The notes below the pieces were generated by a model that did not search any database, was not told the DNA's origin, and saw only the letters and a program-made list of their open reading frames with translations. A stretch of 64,000 nucleotides of DNA from Tabrizicola sp. TH137. GTDB taxonomy: Bacteria > Pseudomonadota > Alphaproteobacteria > Rhodobacterales > Rhodobacteraceae. Below are positions 36,941 to 45,659 of this stretch, piece after piece (the stretch's first letter is position 1; each line of letters opens with the position of its first letter). Location: contig NZ_PKRQ01000001.1 in the NCBI RefSeq assembly GCF_002855575.1, positions 868,001 to 932,000 of the forward strand, written 5' to 3'. Made by a program: the position numbers and the translations under genes.

Positions 36941-37293
36941 TCCGCATCTTCTGGACCCTTGGCGGTGGGATCGCTCTGCTTTTTGCGATTGCAGGGACGG
37001 CCTTGCCTTTGGTTCCGACGGTGCCGTTCCTGCTGCTTGCGGCCGTCTGCTTTGCACGATCCTCGCAGACTCTGCATCACTGGTTGCTCAATCACCCGCA
37101 GCTAGGCCCTCCCATCCGTCAGTGGCGGGATCGGGGCGCTATCGGGCGGAGGGCAAAGGTCCTTGCCAGTGTTTCCATCGCAGCGGCCTTTGCCGGTTCG
37201 ATCTGGCTCGGCATCGCGCCATGGCTACTGGCCCTTCAGGGGGTCGTGCTGGCTGGTGTTGGCATGTTCATATGGACACGTCCCGAGGCATAG
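36937..37293 (+). CDS. YbaN-like DUF454 membrane protein
   Basis: The 118-residue protein has two N-terminal and two C-terminal hydrophobic segments and the DUF454 landmarks (AIAGTALPLVPTVPFLLLAA, CFARSSQTLHHWLLNHPQLG, PPIRQW). The start is probably TTG at 36937, overlapping the hemW stop by 4 bases. Its end overlaps the end of convergent parB by 26 bases. Confidence 0.85.
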   Translation: MIRIFWTLGGGIALLFAIAGTALPLVPTVPFLLLAAVCFARSSQTLHHWLLNHPQLGPPIRQWRDRGAIGRRAKVLASVSIAAAFAGSIWLGIAPWLLALQGVVLAGVGMFIWTRPEA

Positions 37294-38176
37294 CCGACAG
37301 CGCCCTGCAAAGCAGATCAAGATCGTCCAGACTGCGGTAGCGGATGGAAAGCACGCCGCCCTCATCGACGCCGGCATGATCAATCGTCACCCGCATGTTC
37401 AGATTGGCAGAAAGGTCATTTTCAAGCGCGCGCGTATCGGCATCCTTGTCGGAGCGTCCCCGCGGACCACTTGCCTTCCCGGTTCCCTTCTTTTCCGGAT
37501 CACGGGCCAGCGCCTCCGTCTCACGAACAGAAAGGTTGCGCGCGATGACCTGGCGGGCCAACTCTGCGGCGTTTGACGCTGTGATCAGCGCGCGCGCATG
37601 CCCGGCAGAAAGCCGCCCCTCCCTGACATGGGCCTGAACCTCTTCGGGAAGCGCAAGCAACCGCAGAAGGTTGGCGATATGGCTTCTGCTTTTCGACAGC
37701 GCTTCTGCCATCTTCTCTTGTGTATGCCCAAACCGATCCATCAATTGCCGGAAGGCGAGGGCCTCTTCGATTGCATTGAGGTCGGCGCGCTGGATGTTTT
37801 CGATGATCGCGACTTCGATGACTTCCGAGTCGGTGAAATCCCGGACGATCACCGGAAGCTCATGAACCTGTGCCATCTGCGCGGCGCGCCAGCGCCTTTC
37901 TCCGGCAACAATCTCGAACCGCCCATCGGCGAGCGCACGCACGATCAGGGGCTGGATCACCCCCTTGGCGCGGATAGACGCCGCAAGCTCATGGAGCGCA
38001 TCAGGCTGAAAATCCCGGCGCGGCTGGTTCGGGTTCGGAACAAGCTTTTCGACGGGTACGAGCAGATCAGGGCGACGCGGGCGATCTGGCGTCAACGGAT
38101 CCGTCTCGACAGCCACATCCGCCATGAGTGCAGAAAGACCGCGGCCCAGGCCGCGGCGTTCGGATTTCTTGTCCAT
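37268..38176 (-). CDS. parB: Chromosome partitioning protein ParB
   Basis: ParB is a CTP-dependent clamp that loads at parS sites and spreads. The 302-residue protein starts RRGLGRGLSALMADV, then PNPNQPRRDF, GERRWRAAQMA (nucleotide-binding), the ENIQRADLNAIEEALAFRQL box, the HTH (KSRSHIANLLRLLALPEEVQ) and a C-terminal dimerisation part ending SMPRDVSI. Two strong parS palindromes lie 1.4 and 3.3 kb upstream of the gene. Its ATG overlaps the parA stop. Confidence 0.97.
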   Translation of the reverse strand: MDKKSERRGLGRGLSALMADVAVETDPLTPDRPRRPDLLVPVEKLVPNPNQPRRDFQPDALHELAASIRAKGVIQPLIVRALADGRFEIVAGERRWRAAQMAQVHELPVIVRDFTDSEVIEVAIIENIQRADLNAIEEALAFRQLMDRFGHTQEKMAEALSKSRSHIANLLRLLALPEEVQAHVREGRLSAGHARALITASNAAELARQVIARNLSVRETEALARDPEKKGTGKASGPRGRSDKDADTRALENDLSANLNMRVTIDHAGVDEGGVLSIRYRSLDDLDLLCRALSAMPRDVSI

Positions 38177-38997
38177 CAGACTGTCTCCTGCGCTTGTGCG
38201 AACGGATGCCGGGACGCCAGTTCGGCGGCAAGTGCGCGATACGCCTCGGAGCCCTTTGATGCCGTATCGTAGGACAGAACGGGCAACGCGAAACTGGGCG
38301 CCTCAGACACGCGGACATTCCTTGGGATAATGGTCTGGAAGACAAGATCACCCAGGTTCTGCCGAGCATCGGTTTCCACCTGCTGGCTCAACCTGTTGCG
38401 TCCATCATACATCGTCAACACTATACCTTCTATCCTCAAGCCTGGATTTGCGGTCTGGCGAACTTCACGAACCGTAAGCATGAGCTGCGACAAGCCCTCC
38501 AGCGCAAAGAACTCGGATTGAAGCGGAACAAGCACGGAGTGGCAGGCTACCATCGCATTGACCGTCAAGAGGCTCAGAGATGGCGGGCAGTCGATCAGGA
38601 TGAAATCGAGATTGAACGCATCTATCGCCGGCTGGCGCAGAGCGTCATGCAACAGAAAGCTCCGCTTTTCATTTGCCACAAGTTCCATGTCGGCCGAGGA
38701 GAGATCGGCATTTGCCGGGCAAATGAGAAGGTTCGGTATGGTGCTCTGCTGGATCACGGCGTCAAGAGGGGTGTCGTCGAGCAGAAGATCATACGTGGTG
38801 AACTTTCGCTGGGCGACATCCACCCCGAGGCCGGTCGACGCATTCCCTTGTGGATCGAGGTCAACAAGCAGAACCCTCGCCCCAAGTTCGGCAAGCGCTG
38901 CTGCAAGGTTTATGGCGGTCGTCGTCTTGCCGACACCGCCCTTCTGGTTGGCGATCGCGATGATGCGAGGCTGCTTTGGCCGGGTAGGATCAGACAT
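38176..38997 (-). CDS. parA: Chromosome partitioning ATPase ParA
   Basis: ParA drives segregation of ParB-parS complexes. The 273-residue protein has the deviant Walker [15 protein letters not shown] (residues 19-32), [18 protein letters not shown], and [20 protein letters not shown]. It overlaps rsmG by 8 bases and parB by 1, forming the mnmE-mnmG-rsmG-parA-parB order conserved near bacterial origins. Confidence 0.97.
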
Positions 38998-39607
38998 GCG
39001 ACATGGACCTCACGGCTAGGATTGCACCTTCAGGGTCAGTGGTGCTTTGATGTACCTGAAGCTCGAACTGCCAGTCTTTTCGAGCAAGTTCAACCTCTTG
39101 CCGCCAGTTTGCCCCCTTGAGAAAGAGGCAGGTTGCGCTGCCATCTGGCGAAATATGCCGTGCTGCGTAGGACAAGAGCAGTGGCAGGGGCGCAAGTGCC
39201 CGCGCCGATACCGTCTGGGCGTTCTGTGGCGACGCCTTCTCGATCCGCTGCGCAATGACATTGGCGTTTATCGACAACTGATCAACGGCAAGTCGCAGGA
39301 AGGTCGCCTTTCGCTGGTCAGCTTCGATCATCGTCACGCGAATGGGCAGATCCTGCCCGGCAGCCATACAGGCGACGACAAGTCCAGGAAAGCCTCCGCC
39401 GCTTCCAAGATCAACCCAGTGGCCATGGTCGGCGCCGAGTGAAAAGATCTGGGCTGAGTCCATGATATGGCGATCCCAAGCCTGATCGAGGCTTGAACGT
39501 GAAACAAGGTTGATTGCCGGGTTCCACTTCTTGAGGAGCGCGTGGAGAAGTTCCAGCCGCTCCAATGTTTCACGTGAAACGTCCAGCGCAGCGGTGTTCA
39601 TGGTCAT
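38990..39607 (-). CDS. rsmG: 16S rRNA (guanine-N7) methyltransferase RsmG
   Basis: RsmG methylates G527 of 16S rRNA. The 205-residue protein has the SAM motif [15 protein letters not shown] near residue 67 and [13 protein letters not shown] later. Codons for residues near 9-14 (DVSRET) coincide with a near-perfect parS site at 39566-39581. Start ATG at 39607 overlaps the mnmG stop; a second ATG at 39601 is possible. Confidence 0.96.
39566..39581. promoter_or_regulatory. parS site inside the start of rsmG
   Basis: The sequence TGTTTCACGTGAAACG matches the bacterial parS consensus TGTTTCACGTGAAACA at 15 of 16 bases. It is the loading site expected for the ParB encoded 1.4 kb away. Confidence 0.92.
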
Positions 39608-41481
39608 GCCGAGAGGGTTTGACCGCGCTCCGCCTTGCGGAGATGGGCCAGGATCAGGGTCAGGGCAGCCGGCGTCATCCCCTCGATCCGCGCCGCCTGG
39701 GCCAGATTGGCAGGCCGAACACGATTGAGCTTCGTCAAAAGCTCATTTGACAGCCCTGAAAGCCGCCCAAAATCGAAATCTGCCGGGATCCTTGCCTCTT
39801 CCTCCTTTTGCAGCAGGCGCGCATCGGCCTCTTGGCGATGAAGATACTGGGAATAGAGCGCGTCTGCCGCAACCTGGTCACGGATCTCTGTCGGACATTC
39901 GGCAAAGCCTGGAAACAGCATTTCGACCACTGCGCGCGCCTCTTCTCCCAGCGCAAGAATCTCATACCCATTCCGGCGTGCGCCGTCCTGGCTGAGGTGC
40001 AAACCGTGGGGGGCAAGCTCCCGCGGCGAGAGTCGGGCCGTTTCAAGCACGGCCTTCGCCGCCGCTATCGCTTCCATCTTCTCGCCAAAGCGGCGACAGC
40101 GATCTTCATTCACACAACCGAGCGTCAGACCCAGTGGCGTCAGGCGTTGATCTGCATTGTCCGCCCGGAGAGCCAGCCGGAACTCGGCGCGCGAAGTGAA
40201 CATGCGATAGGGTTCTGTCACGCCTCGGGTGATAAGATCGTCAATCATCACGCCGATATAGCTGTCGCGCCGACTGAGGATCACCGGGTCAGCCGATTGA
40301 GCATGCAGCGCAGCATTCAATCCTGCAACGAGACCCTGAGCCGCCGCTTCTTCATAGCCGGTCGTGCCGTTGATCTGGCCTGCGAAGAAAAGGCCAGAGA
40401 TCTGGCGCAGTTCCAGATTCTGTTTCAGTGCTCGGGGATCGAAGAAATCGTATTCGATTGCGTAGCCCGGTTGCAGAATGGTGACATCCTCAAGACCATC
40501 AATCGTTCGGACATAGGCCTCCTGCACTTCTTCCGGCAAGGATGTCGAAATCCCGTTTGGGTAAACGGTATGGTCATCCAGCCCTTCCGGCTCGAGAAAC
40601 ACCTGATGACCGGACTTTTCCGCGAACCGAACCACCTTGTCTTCAATCGAGGGGCAGTATCGGGGTCCGACACCTTCAATAAAGCCGCCATACATGGCAG
40701 ATCGTGTCAGATTGGCGCGAACGATCTCATGGGTGCGCTCATTTGTATGGGTTATCCCGCAGGAAATCTGCGCTGCCTCTGGTGATCGGTTCATAAACGA
40801 AAAAAGCACAGGTGCTTCATCGCCGGGCTGCTTTTCAAGGCGATCCCAGTCGATGGTTCGACCATCCAGCCTTGGCGGTGTACCGGTCTTCAACCGACCA
40901 CGGGGAAGGGCGAGATCGGCCAGACGCTCCGCAAGACGAACAGACGGTGAGTCACCAACACGACCGCCTGGACGACGCCGATCCCCGATGTGAATGACTC
41001 CATTCAGAAACGTTCCGGCAGTCAGGATCACGGCCTTCGACATCACCTTCGTGCCGTCACCAAGAACAACGCCTGATGTTCTGGTGCCGTCCATCAAGAG
41101 GTCCACAACCTCGCCTTCAAGAATAGAGAGGTTGGGTTGGCGACGAAGGACGTCCTGCATTGCCAACCGATACAGCTTTCGATCCGCCTGCGCGCGCGGG
41201 CCTTGCACGGCGGGGCCCTTCCGACGGTTCAAAAGCCGGAACTGAATCCCTGCCCGGTCAGCAACACGCCCCATGACACCATCCATGGCGTCGATTTCGC
41301 GCACCAGATGGCCCTTTCCCAAGCCCCCGATGGCGGGATTGCACGACATCACGCCAATGGACTCGGCGCGCAGCGTAATCAGTGCGGTCGAGGCGCCCAT
41401 CCGCGCCGACACCGCAGCAGCCTCACTGCCCGCATGGCCACCCCCGATGACGATGACATCAAACTGTTTCACGTGAAACAT
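39604..41481 (-). CDS. mnmG: tRNA uridine 5-carboxymethylaminomethyl modification enzyme MnmG (GidA)
   Basis: With MnmE, MnmG modifies the wobble uridine of several tRNAs using FAD and NADH. The 625-residue protein has the FAD motif [14 protein letters not shown] (residues ~9-23), [51 protein letters not shown] and [16 protein letters not shown]. The start MFHVKQ is encoded by a perfect parS palindrome; an alternative start lies two codons upstream. Its end overlaps rsmG. Confidence 0.97.
41465..41480. promoter_or_regulatory. Perfect parS site at the start of mnmG
   Basis: TGTTTCACGTGAAACA is an exact 16-base match to the consensus parS palindrome. It encodes the MFHVKQ start of MnmG. It is the second strong ParB loading site in the window. 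Confidence 0.95.
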
Positions 41482-44197: not shown

Positions 44198-44647
44198 CTA
44201 GAATTTAAGGACAACCGAAAAAACGATCACCAGAAGCAAGACAGTGGGCACCTCGTTCATCATTCGGTAGTGACGCCCTGTCAGGACGTTCTTGCCAGCC
44301 ATGAAATCCTTCCTGCGCAGTCCAAGCCAGTGGTGGAACCAGGTCATGCCGATCACGGCCGCGGCCTTTGCCCATGGCCAGACCTCCGACCAGGAAACGA
44401 TACCGGGCGTAAAGACCAGGGCCAGACCAAACACCCAGGTCGCGATAAGGGCCGGGTTCATGATTGCGCGAAGAAGGCGGCGCTCCATGGTCTGGAACAG
44501 ATCATCGGTTGCTGTTCCACGCTCCACGGCCTCCACATGATAGACGAACAATCGCGGAAGATAGAACAGACCCGCCATCCAGGCGATGACTGAAACGATA
44601 TGCAGCGCCTTGGTCCAAAGGTACCAGTCCGCCAGGAAGTCATCCAT
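44198..44647 (-). CDS. hemJ: Protoporphyrinogen IX oxidase HemJ
   Basis: HemJ oxidises protoporphyrinogen IX in the inner membrane of bacteria lacking HemG/HemY. The 149-residue protein has about four membrane helices and the conserved [20 protein letters not shown] (His near residue 16) and [20 protein letters not shown]-like Lys/Arg region ([10 protein letters not shown]) typical of the family. It borders the proposed replication origin. Confidence 0.93.
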
Positions 44648-44659
44648 TCGTCGTCGTCC

Positions 44660-45050
44660 TACTCATTGCTCCCCTTCTTCTTAACAATAAGATTTGAAAA
44701 GAGAATGATGATGCTGGCCCTGTGGACAGCAGAATATCATGGTTAATCCTTTCTTTCCTCCACAGGCGGAGCCATGTGGAAAAAGCAGGGAAAACTCTTG
44801 ATGCTGAAAACAGGAATGAACAAAATTAAATAAAACCAATAACTTAAAGTGATTCAAGATGAACACTTCATCCACAGGCACCCTGCCAGTCAGGACAGGT
44901 GAACGACTTTTCCTCCGCGGTCGCTCTCCCGTTCCCACAGGTGGACAAATCGCCTCTGCTCATCGAGAACTCCACAGCCTGCCTGTTCTGCCCCCCTGGG
45001 CGCCAGAACAAACCCCAAGAGCACCGCAGGAACAAAACCGGAGTTTCCAC
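44660..45050. other. Probable chromosomal replication origin (oriC)
   Basis: The 415-base gap 44648-45062 has no gene. Its AT-rich core, 44816-44866, stands out in GC-rich DNA. DnaA-box-like words (consensus TTATCCACA) are frequent: TCATCCACA at 44868-44876 (8/9), TGTGGAAAA at 44775-44783 (8/9, other strand), TGTGGACAG at 44721-44729, CTCCACAGG near 44758, GGTGGACAA at 44940-44948 and GTTTCCACA at 45042-45050. A GANTC site (GATTC) lies at 44851-44855. The position, near parABS and between hemJ and maf, fits an alphaproteobacterial origin. Confidence 0.65.
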
Positions 45051-45062
45051 AGGATCGCCCCC

Positions 45063-45659
45063 ATGCCGCAGATCATCCTGGCCTCTTCATCCAGCATACG
45101 GCTGCAATTGCTTCGCAACGCGGGTGTCCTTGTGGAGGCGATGCCGTCGCGGGTGGATGAAGACTCCATCCGGGATGCTCTTCTGTCCGAAGGCGCGGGT
45201 GCCCGCGATCTGGCTGATACCTTGGCCGAGATGAAGGCACGCAAGCTTTCCGATCGGCTGCCCGCCGCCGTGGTTCTGGGCTGTGACCAGGTTCTCGCCT
45301 TCGATGGAGAAATCTGGGCAAAACCTGAAACGCCTGATGCAGCCCGGGCACAGTTGCAAAGGCTTCGTGGTCACACGCACCGCCTGTTCTCGGCTGTCGT
45401 GCTATATGAGGCAGCAAGGCCCGTCTGGCGGCATATTGGGGAGGCCCGGCTGACGATGCGTTCGTTCTCGGATGCGTATCTGGATGACTACCTGTTGCGG
45501 AACTGGACAGAGGTCCGCCACTGCGTCGGCGCCTACCAGATGGAAGGCGAAGGCGCGCGCCTCTTTTCGCAGGTGGAAGGCGATCACTTCACGATCCTTG
45601 GCCTGCCCCTCCTGCCTCTTCTGAACCACATGTCCCAGCGGGGTTTCATCCCGGCATGA
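45063..45659 (+). CDS. maf: Maf-family nucleoside triphosphate pyrophosphatase
   Basis: Maf proteins hydrolyse modified or canonical NTPs. The 198-residue protein has [17 protein letters not shown] (residues 5-21), the [12 protein letters not shown] segment and VVLGCDQVL with the catalytic Asp, then [17 protein letters not shown] 45063 is preceded by GATCGCCCCC without a strong Shine-Dalgarno. It is the first gene right of the origin and overlaps aroE by 4 bases. Confidence 0.93.

Follow-up and report, generated by a model that had tools for sequence, protein, structure and literature searches.

Replication origins and features

Where the chromosome of Tabrizicola sp. TH137 begins to replicate is the question raised by a short intergenic interval between the divergent genes hemJ and maf, in which the original prediction had placed a candidate replication origin (oriC). 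The window analysed, 64,000 nucleotides long, spans positions 868,001-932,000 of contig C11 (1,094,808 bp, 66% G+C), in a genome of 4.66 Mb distributed in 38 contigs. The hemJ-maf gap is very probably the chromosomal origin. The interpretation is supported by an array of DnaA boxes, by the skew switch found at the locus in other genera, by a place opposite dif-like sites in relatives, by the adjacent parABS system, and by published origins adjacent to maf. Location of oriC beside maf has already been reported as conserved in Rhodobacteraceae, according to the available part of PMC4793288, and the origin proposed is therefore of a known kind. New here are its address in this genome, the anatomy conserved among relatives, and the fact that skew and origin disagree. 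Coordinates are collected in Table 1 and refer to the window, unless a contig is named.

Table 1. Features of the hemJ-maf locus and its surroundings (window coordinates)
Feature	Position	Strand	Basis
oriC candidate, intergenic, divergent hemJ/maf	44648..45062		top exact-TCCACA cluster of C11; conserved flanks
AT-rich block 1, proposed duplex unwinding element	44680..44704		conserved AT peak about 20-70 bp from hemJ start
DnaA-trio-like repeat CAG CAT CAT CAT after G/C spacer	44705..44716	-	excess of NAN runs after the 44721 box
DnaA box CTGTCCACA, anchor of proposed unwinding module	44721..44729	-	at least 7/9 in 64 of 83 aligned gaps
DnaA box TCCTCCACA	44756..44764	+	at least 7/9 in 58 of 83
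DnaA box TTTTCCACA, 8/9	44775..44783	-	at least 7/9 in 46 of 83
AT-rich block 2, contains 44816-44866	44797..44866		second conserved AT peak, about 150-215 bp from hemJ
DnaA box TCATCCACA, 8/9	44868..44876	+	at least 7/9 in 15 of 83, least conserved
Weak DnaA-box-like site GTTCCCACA	44931..44939	+	CCACA core
DnaA box TTGTCCACC	44940..44948	-	at least 7/9 in 31 of 83
Weak DnaA-box-like site AACTCCACA	44968..44976	+	CCACA core
DnaA box GTTTCCACA, beside maf start	45043..45051	+	at least 7/9 in 59 of 83; at least 8/9 in 47
hemJ (UPF0093), left flank	44198..44647	-	Pfam
maf, right flank	45063..45659	+	Pfam
parS, perfect TGTTTCACGTGAAACA	41465..41480		motif scan
parS, one mismatch	39566..39581		motif scan
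parA	38176..38997	-	Pfam AAA_31 and CbiA
parB	37268..38176	-	Pfam ParB_N and HTH_ParB

DnaA boxes in the hemJ-maf interval

The interval resides at 912.6-913.1 kb of C11. It measures 415 bp, in agreement with the length first given for this gene-free stretch, and is 50% A+T. It is bounded by the start of hemJ (44647, minus strand) and by the conserved start of maf (45063). The open frame to which maf belongs extends upstream to 44859; the Pfam Maf domain matches the protein read from 45063. A scan for the DnaA box TTATCCACA at 2 mismatches or less yielded 6 matches, starting at 44721 (-), 44756 (+), 44775 (-), 44868 (+), 44940 (-) and 45043 (+). Those at 44775 and 44868 fit 8 of the 9 letters and no perfect TTATCCACA is found in the gap, precisely as had been predicted (at least six near-matches, two at 8/9, none perfect). 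Additional CCACA cores start at 44931 and 44968.

The cluster exceeds what is expected by chance. Throughout C11 matches of this quality average 0.52 per 416 bp, and 6 or more are found in 0.025% of the windows. One C11 window (at C11:459,924, within a predicted coding frame) outscores the gap by this count, with 7 matches. By exact TCCACA the gap has 6 copies and the best 416-bp window over the gap, which enters maf by 69 bp, has 7; elsewhere on C11 windows reach 3 at most. In this genome the scan extended over C11, which accounts for 1.09 of the 4.66 Mb, and over 80 kb of contig C33. In 51 tiles (1.01 Mb) of C33 and of two congeners, G011 and G018, all placed outside the locus, windows of 416 bp likewise have no more than 3 TCCACA. 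The AT-rich block originally located at 44816-44866 is also real, as the best 51-bp window of the gap is 78% A+T, a value reached in 0.0016% of C11 windows, and falls within a conserved block (AT-rich block 2). A chance gathering of CCACA motifs in AT-rich intergenic DNA would fit single boxes as weak as these, which match in 7 or 8 of 9 letters and are never perfect, but is hardly credible for an array which is unique on 1.09 Mb by exact TCCACA, and is refuted by the conservation of the boxes at fixed places, described below.

Partition genes, dnaA and other neighbours

Pfam searches confirm the domains of ParA, ParB, MnmE, MnmG, Rho, HemJ (UPF0093), Maf, AroE, CoaE, and the RNase_T exonuclease domain of dnaQ; parAB, rho and mnmEG are thus neighbours of the gap, as first annotated. 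The distances of the two parS sites (3.2 and 5.1 kb from the gap) were given correctly, and at 2 mismatches or less parS occurs only at these two places in the whole assembly. The pair parAB has been suggested as an anchor for ori in the accessible portion of PMC8116508.

DnaA is encoded at C11:853,172-854,725 by a gene scoring above the TIGR00362 cut-off, located about 58 kb left of the gap and reading towards it. A better cluster of boxes near dnaA, which would have spoken against the prediction, was sought and is absent: the region 849-860 kb of C11 contains at most 1 TCCACA per 416 bp, and an origin near dnaA was rejected for lack of a box cluster there. Open frames of 281 and 287 aa, at C1:33787-34068 and C17:6673-6954 (L002, L003), exhibit partial similarity to the DnaA ATPase domain; they may encode helper ATPases of the IS21 type or proteins of plasmid replication. 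An open frame of 1255 aa (C11:865,876-869,643), beginning MSRRTYTGSSTGNSLIGSSSNDAMNGLDGNDNLSS, ends inside the window and occupies its left border (1-1643); it resembles a repeat protein rich in glycine and aspartate. No known RNAs were detected in the 64-kb window at gathering thresholds.

Conservation of the interval

Loci compared were 92, own locus included: 80 were named, and 12 came from a search of same-genus genomes by DNA similarity of the hemJ-maf gap. Apart from the genome analysed, 18 same-genus genomes were compared, and in 10 of them the gap is recognisable at the DNA level. Some same-genus gaps have exactly the sequence found in records under the names Rhodobacter ruber, R. kunshanensis, R. 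amnigenus and Gemmobacter straminiformis, all names now listed in Paragemmobacter, and we infer that the genome under study and its relatives with identical gaps belong to a Paragemmobacter-like genus. Divergent hemJ and maf flanks were found in 91 of the 92 loci, with gaps of 346-481 bp; the lone exception, L102, is cut off by its contig end before maf, and was left out of the gap set. Merging of 8 duplicates reduced the 91 gaps to 83 distinct ones, own gap included.

TCCACA occurs on average 3.25 times per gap (0.21 in shuffled gaps), and at least once in 80 of the 83. Box sites are found at fixed places across the 83 distinct gaps, as scored in Table 1 by matches of at least 7/9 with 3 columns of slack, a test which shuffled segments pass in 1% of cases. 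At 5 of the 6 aligned places a perfect TTATCCACA is found, in one to eight gaps each. Two peaks of A+T content are conserved in the same set; their distances from the start of hemJ are about 45 and 185 bp.

Other sites are less informative. A GANTC is present at 44851, as predicted, but it is not a conserved origin element, since GANTC averages 1.17 per gap versus 1.57 in shuffled sequences (83 gaps). Exact CtrA (TTAA-N7-TTAA) and IHF sites were found in 6 and 14 of the 83 gaps, respectively, both above shuffled means, and neither occurs in the gap of this genome. On these grounds CtrA, IHF and GANTC were discarded as conserved origin elements.

The gap separates two divergent operons, and AT-rich block 1 is located where the hemJ promoter would be. 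It might serve hemJ-rho and maf simply as a divergent, DnaA-regulated promoter region, devoid of origin activity. This is very unlikely, as a promoter needs neither near-constant length (346-481 bp) nor a multi-box array fixed in 83 distinct gaps, nor does it need the outgroup skew switch and the place opposite dif reported below.

The interval resembles in part origins known from other bacteria. In the maf-adjacent oriC of Ketogulonicigenium vulgare Hbe602 (DoriC; PMC4793288), as in the present case, the predicted origin lies directly beside maf. Unlike the origins treated in the available text of PMC4793288, the gap described here has no skew minimum and no perfect box; hemJ is its other flank, and the flank named in that text is maf. 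The Caulobacter crescentus Cori and the Rickettsia origin, as presented in the part of PMC1914354 at hand, are also intergenic alphaproteobacterial regions of about 400 bp with several DnaA boxes, but are flanked by hemE and COG1806, rather than by UPF0093 (HemJ) and Maf. The gap differs from this type of origin also in having no exact CtrA or IHF site.

A putative unwinding site

On the minus strand, the box at 44721-44729 is followed by a G/C spacer, by adenines at every third base, and then by T- and pyrimidine-rich DNA. A box matching in at least 7/9 is present here in 77 of the 83 gaps; the other 6 were left out of the trio test. Adenine is found at positions 9, 12, 15 and 18 after the box in 82, 64, 55 and 51% of the 77 gaps, respectively. 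Runs of at least 3 NAN triplets follow the box in 58/77 gaps (25% when shuffled), and runs of at least 4 in 41/77 (7% when shuffled). No excess of runs of at least 3 NAN was observed at four other box places.

The order box-spacer-trio is that of the basal unwinding system (BUS), and the segment 44680-44716 is for this reason proposed as the unwinding element. Judging from sequence pattern, the likeliest place of unwinding would be this segment beside hemJ, rather than 44816-44866. The gap fits the BUS sequence pattern, which calls for a DnaA box, a spacer of up to 16 bp and at least 3 NAN trios, and is like the BUS, as described in the consulted part of PMC8287927, in having a box, a short spacer, at least 3 NAN trinucleotides and AT-rich DNA. 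The two differ in that trios are here mostly 5'-CAT-3', whereas the commonest in the BUS is given there as 3'-GAT-5'.

GC skew at the locus and elsewhere

A minimum of GC skew is the usual sign of oriC, not its strict definition, because rearrangement moves it. Six other genera were represented by one genome each, in which hemJ lies well inside a long contig, and skew was measured in 20-kb tiles on both sides of this gene (two tiles of G093 are absent). In all six, skew is negative at -80 kb and positive at +80 kb. Considering all tiles, 15/16 to the left are negative and 14/18 to the right positive; the 5 wrong-sign tiles out of 34 (1 left, 4 right) all lie beyond 80 kb.

The minimum sought at 44.7 kb of the window is missing in the genome analysed, as the cumulative skew of C11 has no minimum at the locus; the same holds for the congener G018. 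A skew minimum elsewhere had been named beforehand as an outcome that would formally refute the prediction. Third-codon-position skew differs in sign between genes on one strand of C11 and those on the other (coding-strand values -0.33/+0.24 at 900-1000 kb), which indicates that skew follows replication, and not gene direction. Such strand opposition fails in the first 200 kb of the contig. To the left and right of the locus third-position skew generally takes values of -0.2 to -0.4, and it is closer to zero between about -16 and +12 kb. This dip is not decisive, because the skew of genes adjoining the locus is weak also in other genera (mean skew -0.10 left and -0.06 right in 72 loci; 2 of the 80 named loci had too few bases and were left out). 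Skew of the adjoining genes, being weak in most genera, was set aside as evidence.

Skew switches instead on C33, at 300-305 kb. The switch of G018 involves the same genes and lies at 2.30-2.31 Mb, separated by 0.39 Mb from the locus (2.698 Mb). We take the genes at the switch to be a sugar transporter, pncB and yhhQ; the nicotinamidase scores above its family cut-off, an IclR-type regulator below cut-offs. No box cluster was found at the switch, TCCACA numbering at most 3 per 416 bp in C33 (270-350 kb) and at most 2 in G018 (2.28-2.33 Mb). A skew switch devoid of a DnaA-box cluster, at a sugar-transport/IclR/nicotinamidase locus, is a feature common to the two species (L238, L236). In G011 and G002, sampled coarsely, the nearest switch is likewise off the hemJ-maf locus.

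The active origin may have moved about 0.4 Mb to the right, to the skew minimum, and the hemJ-maf gap may be a former origin, retained for another purpose, for instance to titrate DnaA next to the centromere. Beyond the first 200 kb of C11, 17/18 50-kb bins are negative, with no switch at the locus; the switch is at the same genes in two species; and the composition of C11 genes follows that polarity, whatever place the genes have in outgroups. All this fits a moved origin, which we nonetheless regard as improbable. The place to which it would have moved has no cluster of boxes; boxes at hemJ-maf are kept. The gene yhhQ lies in G002 between two positive-skew tiles, not at a minimum. Of 6 named congeners, 3 have positive and 3 have negative skew in aroE-coaE-dnaQ, the genes to the right of the locus, with the limit that genes so close carry weak skew in most genera. 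The remaining evidence for an origin at hemJ-maf is judged stronger than the failed skew test, in part because of the absence of a box cluster at the skew switch.

Position relative to dif

The distance from the terminus provides further information on where replication starts. Sites resembling dif were sought by pattern, and measures were taken where locus and site share a contig of exactly known length. In the 7/7 measurable relatives the locus is 0.6-5.6% of the chromosome away from the antipode of the dif-like site, the offsets being 62 kb (G018), 100 kb (G011), 50 kb (G002, measured from parS), 82 kb (G110), 74 kb (G243), 223 kb (G266) and 19 kb (G292). The values for G018, G011 and G292 are based on sites with 3 mismatches, and several genomes feature further weak matches; with an alternative weak site of G011 (2,360,617) the locus is 87 kb off. 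The test leaves aside G021, G123, G152 and G042, the lengths of which are inexact, G204 and G221, which gave no site (in G221 by one of two pattern searches), and the genome analysed, in which locus and dif-like site reside on different contigs. Two perfect dif-like sites of G021 are about 80 kb and 490 kb from the point opposite the locus, as calculated on a rounded length. A dif consensus had no match in the 4 genomes searched with it.

The skew switch is not comparably placed, which argues against a moved origin. In G018 it is 455 kb (11.7%) away from the dif antipode, and yhhQ, which lies beside the switch, is 448 kb off in G018, 509 kb (12%) in G011 and 389 kb in G002.

Further dif-like sites, all centred on TTTTGA, were found off the locus contig in three genomes, at C5:10408 and C6:13658 of the genome analysed, C2:45643 of G018, and C3:64307 and C2:106114 of G042. 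They differ from the chromosomal dif-like sites, and the contigs are perhaps plasmids.

Rearrangements around the locus

C11 and G018 differ by an inversion spanning roughly 2.2-3.15 Mb of G018, the centre of which, at about 2.68 Mb, is near the locus (2.698 Mb). The two genomes share the order of genes to the right of the locus (secA at +104 kb in G018 and +98 kb here, clpB at +177 and +168 kb), and C11 is hence not chimeric at this point. In G110 and G292 genes of the dnaA region lie to the right of the locus, some +70 to +90 kb from it, as does one of them in G243; in the genome analysed they are on the left, at about -80 to -50 kb. The genes secA and clpB change arm between genera. A 16S motif, sought on C11 for the direction of rRNA genes, was not found.

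We infer from these differences that the displaced skew minimum reflects rearrangement around the origin in this genus. A model based on a single inversion was rejected, since the positions of secA, clpB and yhhQ in outgroups are spread over the two arms. Of 14 orthologues located right of the locus, 7 run in outgroups with the forks that leave the locus and have there a mean coding skew of -0.04, but their composition is of lagging type in the genome analysed (-0.33). Composition to the right of the locus looks equilibrated, and a young inversion alone does not explain it.

In a survey described in the available part of PMC6699656, oriC was placed in 101 of 109 strains by Ori-Finder, with curation by skew minimum, GC minimum and proximity of parAB. 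One strain, featuring a skew switch inside a replichore, was interpreted there as a case of recent inversion or misassembly.

A model for initiation

The hemJ-maf gap thus lies next to maf, has parAB and parS nearby, carries more DnaA boxes than expected by chance, and in relatives is found opposite dif. If it is the origin, initiation might proceed as follows. DnaA would bind six to eight boxes, and extend from the minus-strand box at 44721-44729, over the short G/C spacer, onto the CAG-CAT-CAT-CAT trios, from which it would open the AT-rich block beside hemJ. The inner, opposed boxes (44756, 44775), AT-rich block 2 and the outer boxes would make up the rest of the assembly. Once the helicase is loaded, two forks would depart, one through hemJ-rho-mnmE-mnmG-parAB, the other through maf-aroE-coaE-dnaQ, both co-directional with these genes. 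ParB bound to the two parS sites would then separate the daughter origins.

The analysis places the probable origin within 415 bp; by skew alone it would have been assigned to a place about 0.4 Mb away. It provides a conserved origin anatomy for the family, including an unwinding site that can be tested. Had the origin moved after all, origin, centromere and old oriC would be uncoupled in this Paragemmobacter-like lineage. With the origin at hemJ-maf, as preferred here, the lineage is one in which the polarity of base composition and the place of the origin disagree, and may be useful for dating rearrangements and for testing origin movement.
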